A stretch of 64,000 nucleotides of DNA from Prochlorococcus sp. AG-409-L14 (GTDB taxonomy: Bacteria > Cyanobacteriota > Cyanobacteriia > PCC-6307 > Cyanobiaceae), in NCBI GenBank assembly GCA_003215545.1, contig QCKF01000003.1, forward strand, positions 1-64,000, in the 5' to 3' direction. Shown here piece by piece: positions 24,097 to 34,835 of this stretch. Under the pieces are notes generated by a model. The model saw only the letters and a list, made by a program, of their open reading frames with translations, was not told where the DNA came from and did no database searches. A program made the translations under genes and the position numbers. Positions within the stretch are counted from its first letter, which is position 1, and the number at the start of each line of letters is the position of its first letter.

Positions 24097-24525
24097 TTCA
24101 TCACAAGCCAGCAGTATTAATATACAACATTATGCTTGAATTAATTTTACCACTTCTTATTTGCTGCCGATTCAATACTTTTAGTTTAATTATCTCTACA
24201 CATAATTGTATTTCAGATATTAACTAGGATTGATTCCAACCATTTATATAAGGCGAAAGATCTATTTATTTACAGGAAGTATTACTTTATCAGCCTTCCT
24301 AATTATTAAAGGCAAGCATTCTCAGCTTTAAAGTATTCCAGATTTTCTTAAATTTGCTGGAAATGCTGAAATACAGAGGCAATGACTTGTCTATGTAACG
24401 AAGAATACTTGAGGATGTAAAAAATAATACAAGAGTGGACTTCTCTAAATTCACTTGCCTGGGTGAGGATAAGCCGTATTAGGTAGCAATTAAAGCTTTC
24501 TGAAGTTCAGCACGTTTAGGGTGAT
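24097..24525. other. Divergent promoter region of the VTT and Crp-like genes
   Basis: 429 bases with no ORF longer than about 12 codons. I looked for the TTGAGA-N5-TCTCAA element found elsewhere in this block and did not find it here. Nothing else stands out. Confidence 0.45.
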
Positions 24526-25254
24526 TTGATGGATTGCAAAAAATCAAGTCATGTCAACGGATTTCTAGAGCCGAAGACATTGAATGATCACCTGAAATCT
24601 AGAAATTTTACGCCTTTCTCAATCCACCACTTTTTGCAAAATTACTTACAAAATGGTTTGAGTGTTCAGGAGGGAAAGAAAAGCCTGGAAACCTTAAATA
24701 CACACCATTTAAATAAAGGTCAGACCTTTCTGCTATCCCCACCAGGGTCAGGGGATAATTGTGCACATTTGATCTTTAACAAGGGTTTTGGTCGTCTTGC
24801 AGGATCATTTGGAGGCAACTTTTCTGATATCACTCTTGCCTTTTTTGGGTCTAAAGAGCGGCATTGGCTTAGATTTTCAATGTCAAGCAATTTTCTTTTA
24901 GAAGCTCTTTCTGACAGTTCTATACAAATCGAATATTTAGAACGTTGTCCCAAAAATAATGATTCGATTAAAAAATGGCTTTTCGATCTAAATCTTGTAC
25001 GTCACTCAGTTGGCGCAGAGGCTCGCTTGATCTCTCTAATTAATTTACTTGTATCACGTTTTGGTGTGACTACTAATAACGGATATTTATTGCCCTTTTC
25101 TTTAGAACATTCACGTATTGCAGAATTAATAGGTGTTACACGTTCAACAGTAACTAGAAAATTAGCTTTACTTAAGAGTCAAAATGATTTAGTTTTTGAT
25201 ACAATAAATGGCCAATTACTTATATCTGATAGATTAATTAAGGTTGAAGTTTGA
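24526..25254 (+). CDS. Crp/Fnr-family transcriptional regulator, upstream of the iron ABC ATPase
   Basis: 242 residues. The C-terminal Crp-type winged helix is clear: LEHSRIAELIGVTRSTVTRK at about residues 193-212, with TRSTVTRKL as recognition helix. The N-terminal effector domain is degenerate: the usual cNMP-binding beta roll signature is not visible. The stop TGA shares its last base with the ATG of the ABC ATPase gene, so the two are translationally coupled. It may control that operon and nearby iron genes. A second, different Crp-type gene is 2.3 kb away. Confidence 0.8.
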   Translation: MMDCKKSSHVNGFLEPKTLNDHLKSRNFTPFSIHHFLQNYLQNGLSVQEGKKSLETLNTHHLNKGQTFLLSPPGSGDNCAHLIFNKGFGRLAGSFGGNFSDITLAFFGSKERHWLRFSMSSNFLLEALSDSSIQIEYLERCPKNNDSIKKWLFDLNLVRHSVGAEARLISLINLLVSRFGVTTNNGYLLPFSLEHSRIAELIGVTRSTVTRKLALLKSQNDLVFDTINGQLLISDRLIKVEV

Positions 25255-26388: not shown

Positions 26389-26529
26389 CTAGTTTTTTCC
26401 GCACTGGCATTTACCACCTTTCCATTTTGAACACTTTTGTTTTTTGCAAGTCTTTTTCTTATAGGCCTTTAAAGGTCTCCGTTGATTATCTTGTTCGGAT
26501 GTGGCCCCAATATTTATACCCATGAACAT
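26389..26529 (-). CDS. Cys/Lys-rich mini-protein in the iron-stress block (46 aa)
   Basis: 46 codons from ATG at 26529 (44 from ATG at 26523). The N-terminal half is polar. The C-terminal half is extremely basic with four cysteines at 28, 33, 41 and 43 (TCKKQKCSKWKGGKCQCGKN). The C-x4-C-x7-C-x-C spacing suggests metal binding or disulfides. It converges with futC (52 bases apart) and starts 14 bases from a perfect palindrome shared with a Crp-type gene. No family recognised; a metal chaperone, a metallothionein-like or a DNA/RNA-binding role are all possible. Confidence 0.5.
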   Translation of the reverse strand: MFMGINIGATSEQDNQRRPLKAYKKKTCKKQKCSKWKGGKCQCGKN

Positions 26530-26542
26530 TTATATGAAGTTA

Positions 26543-26567
26543 GAAATTGAGAGTCAGTCTCAATTTC
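26543..26567. promoter_or_regulatory. Palindromic operator GAAATTGAGA-N5-TCTCAATTTC
   Basis: A perfect 10-bp inverted repeat with a GTCAG spacer. It lies 14 bases upstream of the Cys/Lys-rich mini-gene start and 130 bases before the ferritin gene on the other strand. Its core TTGAGA-N5-TCTCAA recurs exactly upstream of the Crp-type gene at 28159. The odd-length 7-1-7 form (TGA...TCA over 15 bases) resembles Fur boxes. Confidence 0.75.
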
Positions 26568-26696
26568 ATTTTAGTCGTTTTACTGTTGATTCTGCATCGA
26601 GTTTGATTTATTTAAAAGTGATGTATCATTTGGCACAACTGCTGCTCGCTCACTTTGTTCGATCCTTAAGGTCGCATAGAGCGTTTCTAAATCATC

Positions 26697-27254
26697 ATGG
26701 AACTACTAACTCGTCATTCTTCACTGAAAATTTCAACAGGTCCCTCTGGTAGAGCTATAGCAGAGCCTATCGAATCTGATTTGTTAGATGGACTTTATCA
26801 ACATCTGACAATGGAGAGGCAGGCAAGTGCTCATTACTTTGCAGTTTCTCTATGGTTCGCAGAACGAGAATTAAGAGGTTTTTCTAAGTTCTTTAGACAA
26901 GAATGCTTAAATGAGCATGAACATGCAGAGAAGTTTGCAGAGTATTTAATTGCTCGTGGACAAACTGTTGTTTTGCATGATCTTCCTGCACCAAATCAAA
27001 ATTGGACTTCAGTCGAAGACATAATGAAAGTATCTTTTCAGATGGAATCTGATGTAACTACATCTTTACAGCAATTATATTCAGTAGCAGAAAGATCTTC
27101 TGATGTCAGAACAACTGTATTTTTAGATCCAACAGTTGAAAGTCAATTGTCATCTGAGGATGAATTTGCTTATTTATTAGGTCGAGTAAAATTTGCAAAT
27201 AATGAACCATCAGCATTATTAATTATTGATGGTGAGTTGTCAAAACAAGTTTAG
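26697..27254 (+). CDS. Ferritin, divergent copy
   Basis: 185 residues with an N-terminal extension of about 24. The four-helix ferritin body is recognised: LTMERQASAHYFAVSLWF in helix A, NEHEHAEKFAEYL in helix B (E-x-x-H ligands kept), and QMESDVTTSL in helix C. In helix D the region VESQLSSEDEF replaces the usual WFVxEQxxEE, so one or two acidic ligands near the ferroxidase or third iron site seem lost. It stores iron. The gene pairs with a more standard ferritin at 29923-30450. It converges with 27283-27552. Confidence 0.85.
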   Translation: MELLTRHSSLKISTGPSGRAIAEPIESDLLDGLYQHLTMERQASAHYFAVSLWFAERELRGFSKFFRQECLNEHEHAEKFAEYLIARGQTVVLHDLPAPNQNWTSVEDIMKVSFQMESDVTTSLQQLYSVAERSSDVRTTVFLDPTVESQLSSEDEFAYLLGRVKFANNEPSALLIIDGELSKQV

Positions 27255-27282
27255 TATATAAAGTCAACTTTATTAGATTAAG

Positions 27283-27552
27283 TTAGTTTATTGGTCGCTT
27301 ACATATTTCAATTAGGAAATCTATTGAGAGTGGATCTATTGCTTTGGTAAGTTTTAATGAATGTGCATTTCTTAATAGTTCAAATCTTCTTATCTCTAGC
27401 ATTGATAATTCTTTCTTTAATCTATTGATAAGGGTATTATCCTTGGTATTTCTTATGGATGAGCAGATACTTATGCAACGCGCACGAATCATATAAGTTT
27501 CGCGAGTAAGTGAAGCAACAATTGAGTCAGAGAAATTAACTACTTTATTCAT
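27283..27552 (-). CDS. Hypothetical helical protein downstream of the Crp-type gene (89 aa)
   Basis: Soluble and helical. The middle (NRLKKELSMLEIRRFELLRN) is a likely coiled coil, and it has Cys at three places, including the pair in RCISIC. It follows the Crp-type regulator gene by 13 bases on the same strand, so both probably share one transcript and the palindromic control site. No family recognised. Confidence 0.6.
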   Translation of the reverse strand: MNKVVNFSDSIVASLTRETYMIRARCISICSSIRNTKDNTLINRLKKELSMLEIRRFELLRNAHSLKLTKAIDPLSIDFLIEICKRPIN

Positions 27553-27565
27553 TTACTTGACTAAA

Positions 27566-28159
27566 TTATGCTGCTAAAGGGGATGATTCAATCAAGGCAG
27601 GGGCAAGTCTTAAGATAGGCTCACCTGTTGGTACATTCAGCAAATCTGCTGATCTTAATCTAGAGATAAGACGTGTTGAAGTGACACGAGTAGAACCTAT
27701 TAGTTCACCAATTCTTTCGTGTGTAAGTCTGAAGGGTAGATGACACCAGTCACCACATCTTCTTCCGAGTCTGTTTACTAGAAGAGCAAGTAATGCTTGC
27801 AATCTTTGTTCTGCACTACCTAAATGTCGAATTCTAAGTAATTGAAGAGTCCATTCATTTACTGCGTCATAACCTTGAGAATCTGCCACTTCTGCGTCAC
27901 TTCTAAAACATAGAGGTGTTAATGCTTCAACGCATACACCCTCGCTACATAAACGATCAGTTCTAAGTTGATCACCAGCCTGCAAGAAGGCAAGTGTCAT
28001 TCCTTCGGTTTCTTCGCATGGGCAATAAACACGTGCTACGCCTTCTATTACTTCAAGGCAAGCATCACCTGATCTGGCAGATGGATCTATCAGCACTGAC
28101 TGTCCAGTAGGCATACGAACAGCCGACAATGGTTCATCTGGTAAAAAGCGAAAGCTCAT
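27566..28159 (-). CDS. Crp/Fnr-family transcriptional regulator
   Basis: 197 residues. The short N-terminal beta-roll domain has several Cys (VYCPCEETEG and LCSEGVC), which could sense metal or redox state. The C-terminal winged helix reads LTHERIGELIGSTRVTSTRL (recognition helix TRVTSTRLI, close to NtcA's). Its GC-richer codon use and many CGT/CGA codons differ from its neighbours. A perfect palindrome lies 19 bases before its start codon, which points to autoregulation or control by Fur. Marine Synechococcus PtrA is a relative by type; a direct equivalence is not shown. Confidence 0.82.
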   Translation of the reverse strand: MSFRFLPDEPLSAVRMPTGQSVLIDPSARSGDACLEVIEGVARVYCPCEETEGMTLAFLQAGDQLRTDRLCSEGVCVEALTPLCFRSDAEVADSQGYDAVNEWTLQLLRIRHLGSAEQRLQALLALLVNRLGRRCGDWCHLPFRLTHERIGELIGSTRVTSTRLISRLRSADLLNVPTGEPILRLAPALIESSPLAA

Positions 28160-28177
28160 TATGTGATTTTTTCTGCT

Positions 28178-28198
28178 TGTTGAGAAGTCATCTCAACA
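28178..28198. promoter_or_regulatory. Palindromic operator TGTTGAGA-N5-TCTCAACA
   Basis: A perfect 8-bp inverted repeat with an AGTCA spacer, 19 bases upstream of the Crp-type gene. Same core (TTGAGA-N5-TCTCAA) as at 26543-26567. About 30 bases further upstream the half-sites recur in everted order, TCTCAA (28230-28235) and TTGAGA (28250-28255). Confidence 0.75.
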
Positions 28199-28311
28199 TA
28201 TACCCATTGAATGCCTTTTTGCAAGCGATTCTCAATAGCAAGTGCACTGTTGAGACCTCTTTGACCAATTTGACCTATTTATGTTTGATTGATCACACTT
28301 AGGAGTAGTTA

Positions 28312-28458: not shown

Positions 28459-28486
28459 AAAAGCCTCGTCTATGACGAGGCTTTTT
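28459..28486. terminator. Terminator downstream of pcb
   Basis: AAAAGCCTCGTC pairs with GACGAGGCTTTTT around TAT. It has T-runs on both sides and sits 59 bases past the pcb stop on the minus strand, so it ends the pcb mRNA. It could also end the tiny plus-strand ORF at 28312. Confidence 0.88.
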
Positions 28487-33359: not shown

Positions 33360-34688
33360 TAAGAGTATTAACCCAAAAGGAACAAGAGCTCTAAGTATTA
33401 CTTGTATTACTATCTGATTATTATTTTGTTTAGCCAACTTAGGGTTCTCAGGAGGGTAGAGCATCGGGGTCTCAAGATGAACAGGGTTCGTATTCTCATT
33501 CGTTGGGTGGAGTAGCCAAGGCTTATCTTTCGAGATGGAACTTTGAAGCCAATCCCAGTAATATTGAACCATCTTATCTTCACCAAGAAGTTTTACATTG
33601 TCTTTTTCTATGTAGCCCATTTGGTGATTAAATGTTTGTGTCCTAAGTATTAGATAGTCTTCTGAAAAAACTTTGTAGAAGATACGTTGCTGTAGATTTT
33701 TGAAAATAATTAATTTTGTGAGCAGATTATTAGTTAGGAATTTTCTGTAATGTCTTACAATTACTCTAGCTCTATTCATTGCAAGTGGTATGTGGTCTAA
33801 TACTTGTACATATCTAGCTGTTTCAAGTTCTCCCTTGTAAATAAGAATCCTTCCGGGAGGTATGAACTTTATCGTTATAAACTCACCTTTGGATTTGTCT
33901 TTATGATTGTATTTACTTTCTATTTGCCTCTTGTCTCTAGTTATTTTCTGATTAAAGCTTGTAATTACATTTCTACTTACATCTTTATCTGGTATGGTGT
34001 CTCCATGCACCCAAAAAATATGAAGTATATCAAGGTGATTTTCGATAATTCTTGCCCAATCACATTTAAAATCAACAATGACCTCCTCGTATTTATATTC
34101 TGTTATTTGGCAACCATATGACTCTGCTTCTAGGTCTGATAAATTTGTTTTTATCTCAAATTCCTCAATATTTGTTTGGGCTTTACCTGAATAATATATG
34201 TATATATAGCCATCTTTTTCAACACATGGGTATTGATATAGGTGAATTTTTTTTGCATAATTCTTATAGTTTGAATCTACTATATGTTGACAAGTAATCC
34301 TATCAAGGTTTGTGCATTCACCTTTGGTTGAGAATCTTGCTCCGTGATATGGACATACTAATTCCCCTTGCACTATTTCCCCACCTCTAAAGGAGGCGCC
34401 TCTATGTGGACATAAATCTTTTATGCACTTTGTCCTTGAGTCTTTATCTCTATAAATAATAAGAGGCTCGTTATACATAGAGAAGAAATATGGTTCGCCT
34501 TGCTTTATTGAATTACTACTTGCAGCTGCATACCAGCCTAGTAAGCCTCCTGAAAGTTGATTTTCAGGTTGTACAGAATTTAATTCTTGTGTTTTTCTGG
34601 CTTTATTTTTATCCGAAGAGGTGCCTTCAGATGGCTGTTCCCCCAACTGTGGTGAATTATTTAACTGCTCTACCCATTTTTCGCTCAT
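33351..34688 (-). CDS. Rieske-type oxygenase (PAO/Tic55-like), membrane-anchored
   Basis: 445 residues. The Rieske 2Fe-2S cluster ligands are C93-x-H95 and C112-x2-H115 (CPH...CPYH). The mononuclear iron site follows at NHLDILHIFWVHG (D-x2-H-x4-H, near residue 220). A hydrophobic helix at the C-terminus anchors it. The N-terminal 45 residues are disordered. It is of the type that acts on chlorophyll breakdown products or carotenoids in plastids (PAO, Tic55, CAO); the substrate here is unknown. A 25-nt palindrome lies 123 bases upstream. Confidence 0.85.
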   Translation of the reverse strand: MSEKWVEQLNNSPQLGEQPSEGTSSDKNKARKTQELNSVQPENQLSGGLLGWYAAASSNSIKQGEPYFFSMYNEPLIIYRDKDSRTKCIKDLCPHRGASFRGGEIVQGELVCPYHGARFSTKGECTNLDRITCQHIVDSNYKNYAKKIHLYQYPCVEKDGYIYIYYSGKAQTNIEEFEIKTNLSDLEAESYGCQITEYKYEEVIVDFKCDWARIIENHLDILHIFWVHGDTIPDKDVSRNVITSFNQKITRDKRQIESKYNHKDKSKGEFITIKFIPPGRILIYKGELETARYVQVLDHIPLAMNRARVIVRHYRKFLTNNLLTKLIIFKNLQQRIFYKVFSEDYLILRTQTFNHQMGYIEKDNVKLLGEDKMVQYYWDWLQSSISKDKPWLLHPTNENTNPVHLETPMLYPPENPKLAKQNNNQIVIQVILRALVPFGLILLLI

Positions 34689-34810: not shown

Positions 34811-34835
34811 ATGTCAATTCATGATGAATTGACAT
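34811..34835. promoter_or_regulatory. 25-nt perfect palindrome upstream of the Rieske gene
   Basis: ATGTCAATTCAT, one central G, then ATGAATTGACAT. A 12-1-12 palindrome of this length is rare by chance and lies in non-coding DNA between the Rieske gene and the gene at 34898, both on the minus strand. It is most likely an operator of a dimeric repressor. Confidence 0.7.

Follow-up and report, generated by a model that had tools for sequence, protein, structure and literature searches.

Putative Fur-type operators at a Crp-type regulator gene and a ferritin-adjacent microprotein gene in Prochlorococcus

Gene order and palindromes of the crp197-ferritin locus

The window analysed here, a 64,000-nucleotide stretch of Prochlorococcus sp. 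AG-409-L14 (contig C3 of the assembly), displays in order crp242-futC (+), a mini-gene (-), ferritin (+), an 89-aa ORF (-), crp197 (-) and pcb (-), and beyond pcb a second ferritin gene (-), an AhpC/TSA-family gene (+) and, farther away, isiB (-). Judged by the Crp-type protein, the closest named relatives comprise cultured strains and single-cell genomes of Prochlorococcus. The 89-aa ORF between ferritin and crp197 (27283-27552) has relatives of 31-38% identity at the equivalent place in other genomes, and no match to it was found in NCBIfam or Pfam.

Table 1. Coordinates of genes and of observed or predicted promoter features in the window
Feature	Position	Strand	Description
Crp-type box, weaker copy	24416..24431	-	2 mismatches; upstream of the crp242-futC operon
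crp242	24526..25254	+	second Crp-type regulator; overlaps futC
Mini-gene	26389..26523	-	C4/Lys-rich microprotein of 44 aa; ATG 26523 is the probable start rather than 26529
Operator 1	26543..26567	.	palindrome GAAATTGAGA-GTCAG-TCTCAATTTC, 10-bp arms; between the divergent mini-gene and ferritin
Candidate -10 of mini-gene	26568..26573	-	TAAAAT, 4 nt before operator 1; predicted from sequence
Crp/NtcA-type box	26622..26637	+	TGTATCATTTGGCACA, ferritin promoter; distinct from the palindrome
Ferritin	26697..27254	+	nearest solved relatives: 5OUW group of ferritins
crp197	27566..28159	-	197-aa Crp/Fnr-family regulator, NtcA-like recognition helix
Operator 2 (site B)	28178..28198	.	8-bp arms, spacer AGTCA; on the predicted crp197 transcription start
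Predicted -10 of crp197	28195..28200	-	TATGTT, at the edge of site B
Predicted -35 of crp197	28219..28224	-	TTGCAA
Site A (operator 3)	28219..28235	-	TTGAGAATCGCTTGCAA, 17 bp
Half-site	28250..28255	-	TCTCAA on the minus strand, upstream of site A; weakly conserved

A preliminary description of this DNA had reported two perfect palindromes sharing the core TTGAGA-N5-TCTCAA (operators 1 and 2), and we verified both in the sequence with the arms and positions of Table 1. Across the entire assembly (35 contigs, 1,145,608 bp, approximately 64% complete) the exact core occurs only at 26547 and 28180, both in the window, and the reversed pattern, used as control, does not occur. A base-composition estimate gives 0.13 matches per assembly and 0.007 per 64 kb, which bears out the claim that two exact matches are unlikely by chance. 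When up to two mismatches were allowed, the window count was at the chance level (8 versus 7.2 expected), so that the signal is confined to the exact core. Since the pattern was picked post hoc from the data, it is more fairly judged by its conservation in other genomes, and the case rests on relatives, in which the motif proved strongly conserved. Each palindrome had also been placed 14-19 bases upstream of a minus-strand start codon. We measured 18 nt for crp197 and, for the mini-gene, 13 nt to ATG 26529. The alignment with relatives favours the second ATG of the mini-gene, at 26523; from this start the 15-bp Fur core is 24 nt upstream, as it is in the relatives.

Conservation of the motif and architecture of the crp197 promoter

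In order to follow the motif across genomes, we scanned the promoters of orthologous genes. Upstream of crp197 it is conserved in 94 of 98 promoters, and the ferritin/mini-gene intergenic region carries a Fur-consensus box in 52 of 76, when compared to 0-0.7% in shuffled sequences. No box was found in the promoters of isiB (0/35), idiA (0/43), futC (0/54) and pcb (0/42), nor in those of the second ferritin gene and the 248-aa AhpC/TSA-family gene (0% for both). The scan of relatives that the preliminary description had proposed was thus positive at crp197 and ferritin/mini-gene and negative at pcb, isiB and futC; its operator of an "iron-stress block" is correctly located, while control of the whole block is not borne out, the operator apparently serving two transcription units. 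A scan of the window's own genome for Fur-like sites with up to three mismatches led to the inspection of 30 places, mostly coding, and yielded no convincing further target. Elsewhere in relatives the perfect motif lies mostly within coding sequence and is rarely kept between genera, on which grounds we regard these matches as background. Perfect TGAGAATTATTCTCA boxes are present near a YggT-like gene in two genomes (G021 and G010; L230 and L239), with a psbX-like ORF adjoining in L230, and are possible further Fur targets in some strains.

The fur promoter displays a related arrangement: 22 of 29 genomes (L280-L309; 0 in shuffles) carry paired half-sites TTCKCAA-N12-TTGMGAA with the same A/C degeneracy as the arms of the palindrome. 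These half-sites face outward across N12, a geometry for which a single 7-1-7 dimer does not account.

We then aligned 90 distinct upstream regions of crp197 from relatives. Site A, a partner operator absent from the preliminary description (as is the half-site upstream of it), is found with 0-3 mismatches in all 90 promoters, and site B is kept in 70. The start-to-start spacing of the two sites is 38-40 bp in 70 of the 90, and exactly 39 in 57. Within site B the arms hold 1.0-2.0 bits of information per position, the spacer 0.2-0.6 and the flanks mostly less than 0.5; its fourth base is A or C, with complementary degeneracy in the opposite arm (TTGMGA/TCKCAA). A TANNNT -10 element stands at a constant distance from site A in 90/90 promoters, including the 20 that have no site B, so that the palindrome is separable from the promoter. 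The right half of site A, TTGCAA, probably doubles as the -35 hexamer, which would explain why this site departs from a palindrome. In A+T-rich relatives, canonical-type Fur boxes stand at the orthologous crp197 positions (TTGATATTAATTCTCAA, TTGATAATTATTCTCAT and TGAGAATTATTATCA). One strain group (L090-L109, L144 and L148) has lost site B and retained site A together with the -10, which suggests a changed tightness of crp197 control in these strains.

These data bear on the view that the palindromes are chance occurrences or transcript structures. The window does hold eight perfect palindromes with arms of at least 8 bp and a spacer of 5, at least one of which is terminator-like (28462-28482). 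Nevertheless, the low expectation for the exact core, the strong conservation with a drifting spacer and the promoter position leave such an origin a negligible probability. Another perfect palindrome, GTCAATTCATGATGAATTGAC (34813-34833, 10-bp arms), lies approximately 125 nt upstream of a minus-strand Rieske-type gene starting at 34688.

The microprotein gene and a second motif at ferritin

Most Prochlorococcus and several Synechococcus/Cyanobium loci have, divergent from ferritin, an ORF of approximately 40-47 aa that ends in KKKxCKKxKCSxWKGGKCxC. Ten columns, four cysteines among them, are invariant in an alignment of 39 sequences, and the codons at the invariant residues differ synonymously; the mini-gene is a real gene. 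When 340 genomes of the class were searched with a profile, the microprotein turned up in 41, all of them of this family (picocyanobacteria), in which it is conserved. There was no match in Pfam, NCBIfam or the PDB and none was found in phage records and viral contigs, and the AlphaFold model (pLDDT 66, pTM 0.28) was too weak for a fold search. At three loci (L114, L117 and L124) the gene is situated approximately 50 nt downstream of crp197 and not beside ferritin.

In most Prochlorococcus the mini-gene start is preceded, at 16-28 nt, by a Fur-type box that usually has a -10-like sequence at its edge (TATAAT or TAGAAT in relatives), which is the arrangement of the crp197 promoter. In relatives, the place of operator 1 is taken by a Fur-consensus box, with sequences such as TGATATTCATTATCA, TGAGATTGATTCTCA and TGAGATTCATTATCA, of which TGATATTCATTATCA and TGAGATTCATTATCA have the canonical form. 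The score against the Fur consensus is at least 14/15 in 50 of 71 distinct ferritin promoters, when compared to 0.4% of shuffles; replacement of the A+T core brings operator 1 to 13/15. Variants of the right half at this place (TTCTCA, TTATCA, TTCGCA and TTTGCA) are near those at crp197, which argues for a single binding protein. The first palindrome had been assigned to the ferritin promoter region: it does lie in the intergenic region, while the nearest gene is the mini-gene and the ferritin promoter has another motif. The nearest customer of the box is thus the mini-gene.

The other motif, TGTATCATTTGNYACA, is of the GTA-N8-TAC kind and lies approximately 68-69 bp from the Fur-type box at ferritin in relatives and 74 bp in the window. 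It is present in 36% of ferritin, 27% of futC, 9% of idiA and 7% of pcb promoters (approximately 0-0.5% in shuffles), and in relatives exact copies are found close to futC, to a porin-like gene and to one crp197 gene. NtcA binds GTA-N8-TAC, and the recognition helix of Crp197 (STRVTSTR) is nearly identical to that of NtcA (STRVTVTR). From its sequence, TGTATCATTTGNYACA is likely to be a site of Crp197 or of the crp242 product, and NtcA is a possible binder. The motif in the ferritin promoter includes a -10-like TATCAT, so that repression at ferritin may be possible. Under low iron, ferritin transcripts are reported to go up or down depending on the lineage (PMC9723758), and the sign of ferritin control can therefore not be assumed.

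The preliminary description had named a Crp-type protein as the other candidate binder of the palindromes. The 197-aa protein would then repress its own gene and act on the neighbouring promoter; autoregulation is common in the Crp family, and nearly all relatives do have the site in the promoter of the regulator gene itself. This candidate is weakened by the NtcA-like helix of Crp197, which the conserved TGTATCATTTGNYACA fits better than the palindrome does. The palindrome, with its TTGAGA arms, is odd-centred and has neither the even-centred form of GTA-N8-TAC or TGTGA-N6-TCACA nor a centre and spacing like those of TTGAT-N4-ATCAA. Moreover, G005 and G032 keep the half-sites of the fur promoter. 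The search for a crp197 orthologue found none in these two genomes (best E values 2e-13 and 8e-8), and a Crp197-bound site is not expected in them. Altogether, we consider binding by Crp197 improbable.

Fur as the probable binder, and comparison with known systems

The palindromes are, in our estimation, probably Fur operators in a picocyanobacterial form, TTGMGA-N5-TCKCAA, which would be a variant of the 7-1-7 Fur box TGATAATNATTATCA with more G+C. The comparative evidence favours the Fur-type reading of the preliminary description, which rests on arms that are conserved while the spacer is not and on the canonical Fur boxes at orthologous positions in A+T-rich relatives. It draws further on the paired half-sites upstream of fur and on gene context: the mini-gene follows crp197 at the three loci described above, and in Synechococcus/Cyanobium genomes the genes fur, crp197, ferritin, idiA and futB are clustered, which also supports an iron role of crp197. 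In the window both sites read TGAGA-N5-TCTCA, an odd-centred 7-1-7 repeat with TGA...TCA ends; they have a core-promoter position, recur in the same promoters of relatives and coexist with a cognate Fur encoded in the genome (contig C2, 57398-57760; ferric uptake regulators are its best matches in the PDB). When the Anabaena FurA consensus AAATAAATTCTCAATAAAT (PMC4005646) is read as its reverse complement, it includes the half-site TATTGAGAAT.

The Fur-family proteins fall by alignment into three classes, Fur, Zur (beside znu in G003) and PerR-like. We found two Fur-family genes, Fur and one of the Zur class, in the complete Prochlorococcus genomes that were inspected (G003, G010, G017, G031 and G038); PerR-like proteins were encountered in G009, G034 and G029 only. 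Use of the site by another metalloregulator of the family, Zur or a PerR-like protein, draws on the likeness of boxes within the family and on the overlap of the palindrome with Zur sites found by the pattern TGAKAWTNATTMTCA. A RegPrecise Zur box of marine cyanobacteria has been published (PMC9337993). Zur sites contain AATGATNATCATT, a core that is present at znu promoters and absent from the window sites and from the crp197 and ferritin sites generally, and the inspected complete Prochlorococcus genomes that retain the sites yielded no PerR-like protein; the chance that either protein is the binder appears slim. As these genomes have Fur and Zur only and Zur has a box of its own, Fur is the likely binder.

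Several observations speak against Fur. The genes isiB, idiA, pcb and futC are usually expected under Fur and have no box here; such a box at classical iron genes is usual for Fur regulons and not strictly defining for a single site. Judging from their promoters, isiB and idiA appear not to be controlled by Fur directly in these genomes and may respond via a second regulator. In addition, the spacers of the window copies (GTCAG and AGTCA) depart from the canonical A+T core, site B is missing from many high-light strains, and most freshwater Cyanobium-type strains have no box at ferritin. The outward N12 pair upstream of fur, a non-standard Fur box, could instead point to an unrelated regulator binding the TTGMGA half-site inward (N5) as well as outward (N12). 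At equivalent positions in relatives, sequences of Fur consensus stand in for the palindrome, and we hold this alternative to be very unlikely.

If Fur is the binder, two operators at a distance of 39 bp would flank the core promoter of crp197, with site A covering the -35 and site B the start point, and a single operator would act at the -10 edge of the mini-gene. We infer that Fur-Fe would bind when iron is present and block RNA polymerase; when iron is scarce, Fur would let go and both the Crp-type regulator and the C4 microprotein would be made. The Crp-type protein would then probably act via TGTATCATTTGNYACA on a second tier, consisting of ferritin, crp242-futC and some idiA and porin promoters.

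Iron limits Prochlorococcus over much of the ocean, and the operator with its fixed geometry, the predicted Fur-to-Crp cascade and the ferritin-adjacent microprotein are direct targets for experiments and allow iron-stress transcriptomes to be read anew. The open papers searched held nothing directly on point about Fur, Crp or IdiB sites in Prochlorococcus. The putative Fur-type operator would be new as a site and ordinary as a kind; the by-products, the partner operator site A and a conserved, unclassified microprotein, are more interesting.

When compared to known systems, the mini-gene recalls the Bfr-Bfd pair, a bacterioferritin and a small [2Fe-2S] ferredoxin (PMC12363616): here too, the gene of a small four-cysteine protein adjoins a ferritin gene, and the Fur-type box predicts expression at low iron. 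The gene position, the four cysteines and the box lead us to a tentative guess, which we regard as rather doubtful, that the microprotein would act like Bfd, being made at low iron under Fur control and aiding iron release from the adjacent ferritin, alongside Fur control of a Crp-type second-tier regulator. It differs from Bfd in its cysteine pattern (C-x4-C-x7-C-x-C) and in its partner, a non-haem ferritin; no sequence relation between the two was found, and Bfd serves as a functional comparison only. With the NtcA/Crp-type site (GTA-N8-TAC) the palindrome shares its palindromic nature, and a matching motif lies close by at ferritin, while half-site, centre and spacing differ. The marine cyanobacterial Zur box (PMC9337993) is likewise a Fur-family operator in the same genomes that overlaps -10 elements, and differs in its AATGATNATCATT core, its centre and its location at znuA/znuC. 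The Fur box TGATAATNATTATCA and the FurA consensus (PMC4005646) have in common with the palindrome the 15-bp odd-centred inverted repeat with TGAGA/TCTCA arms, the position over the core promoter, the association with iron genes and the canonical form in A+T-rich relatives. The palindrome departs from them by its TTG(A/C)GA arms and poorly conserved N5 spacer, by the fixed distance of 39 bp between the crp197 operators and by having few targets among the classical iron-stress genes.
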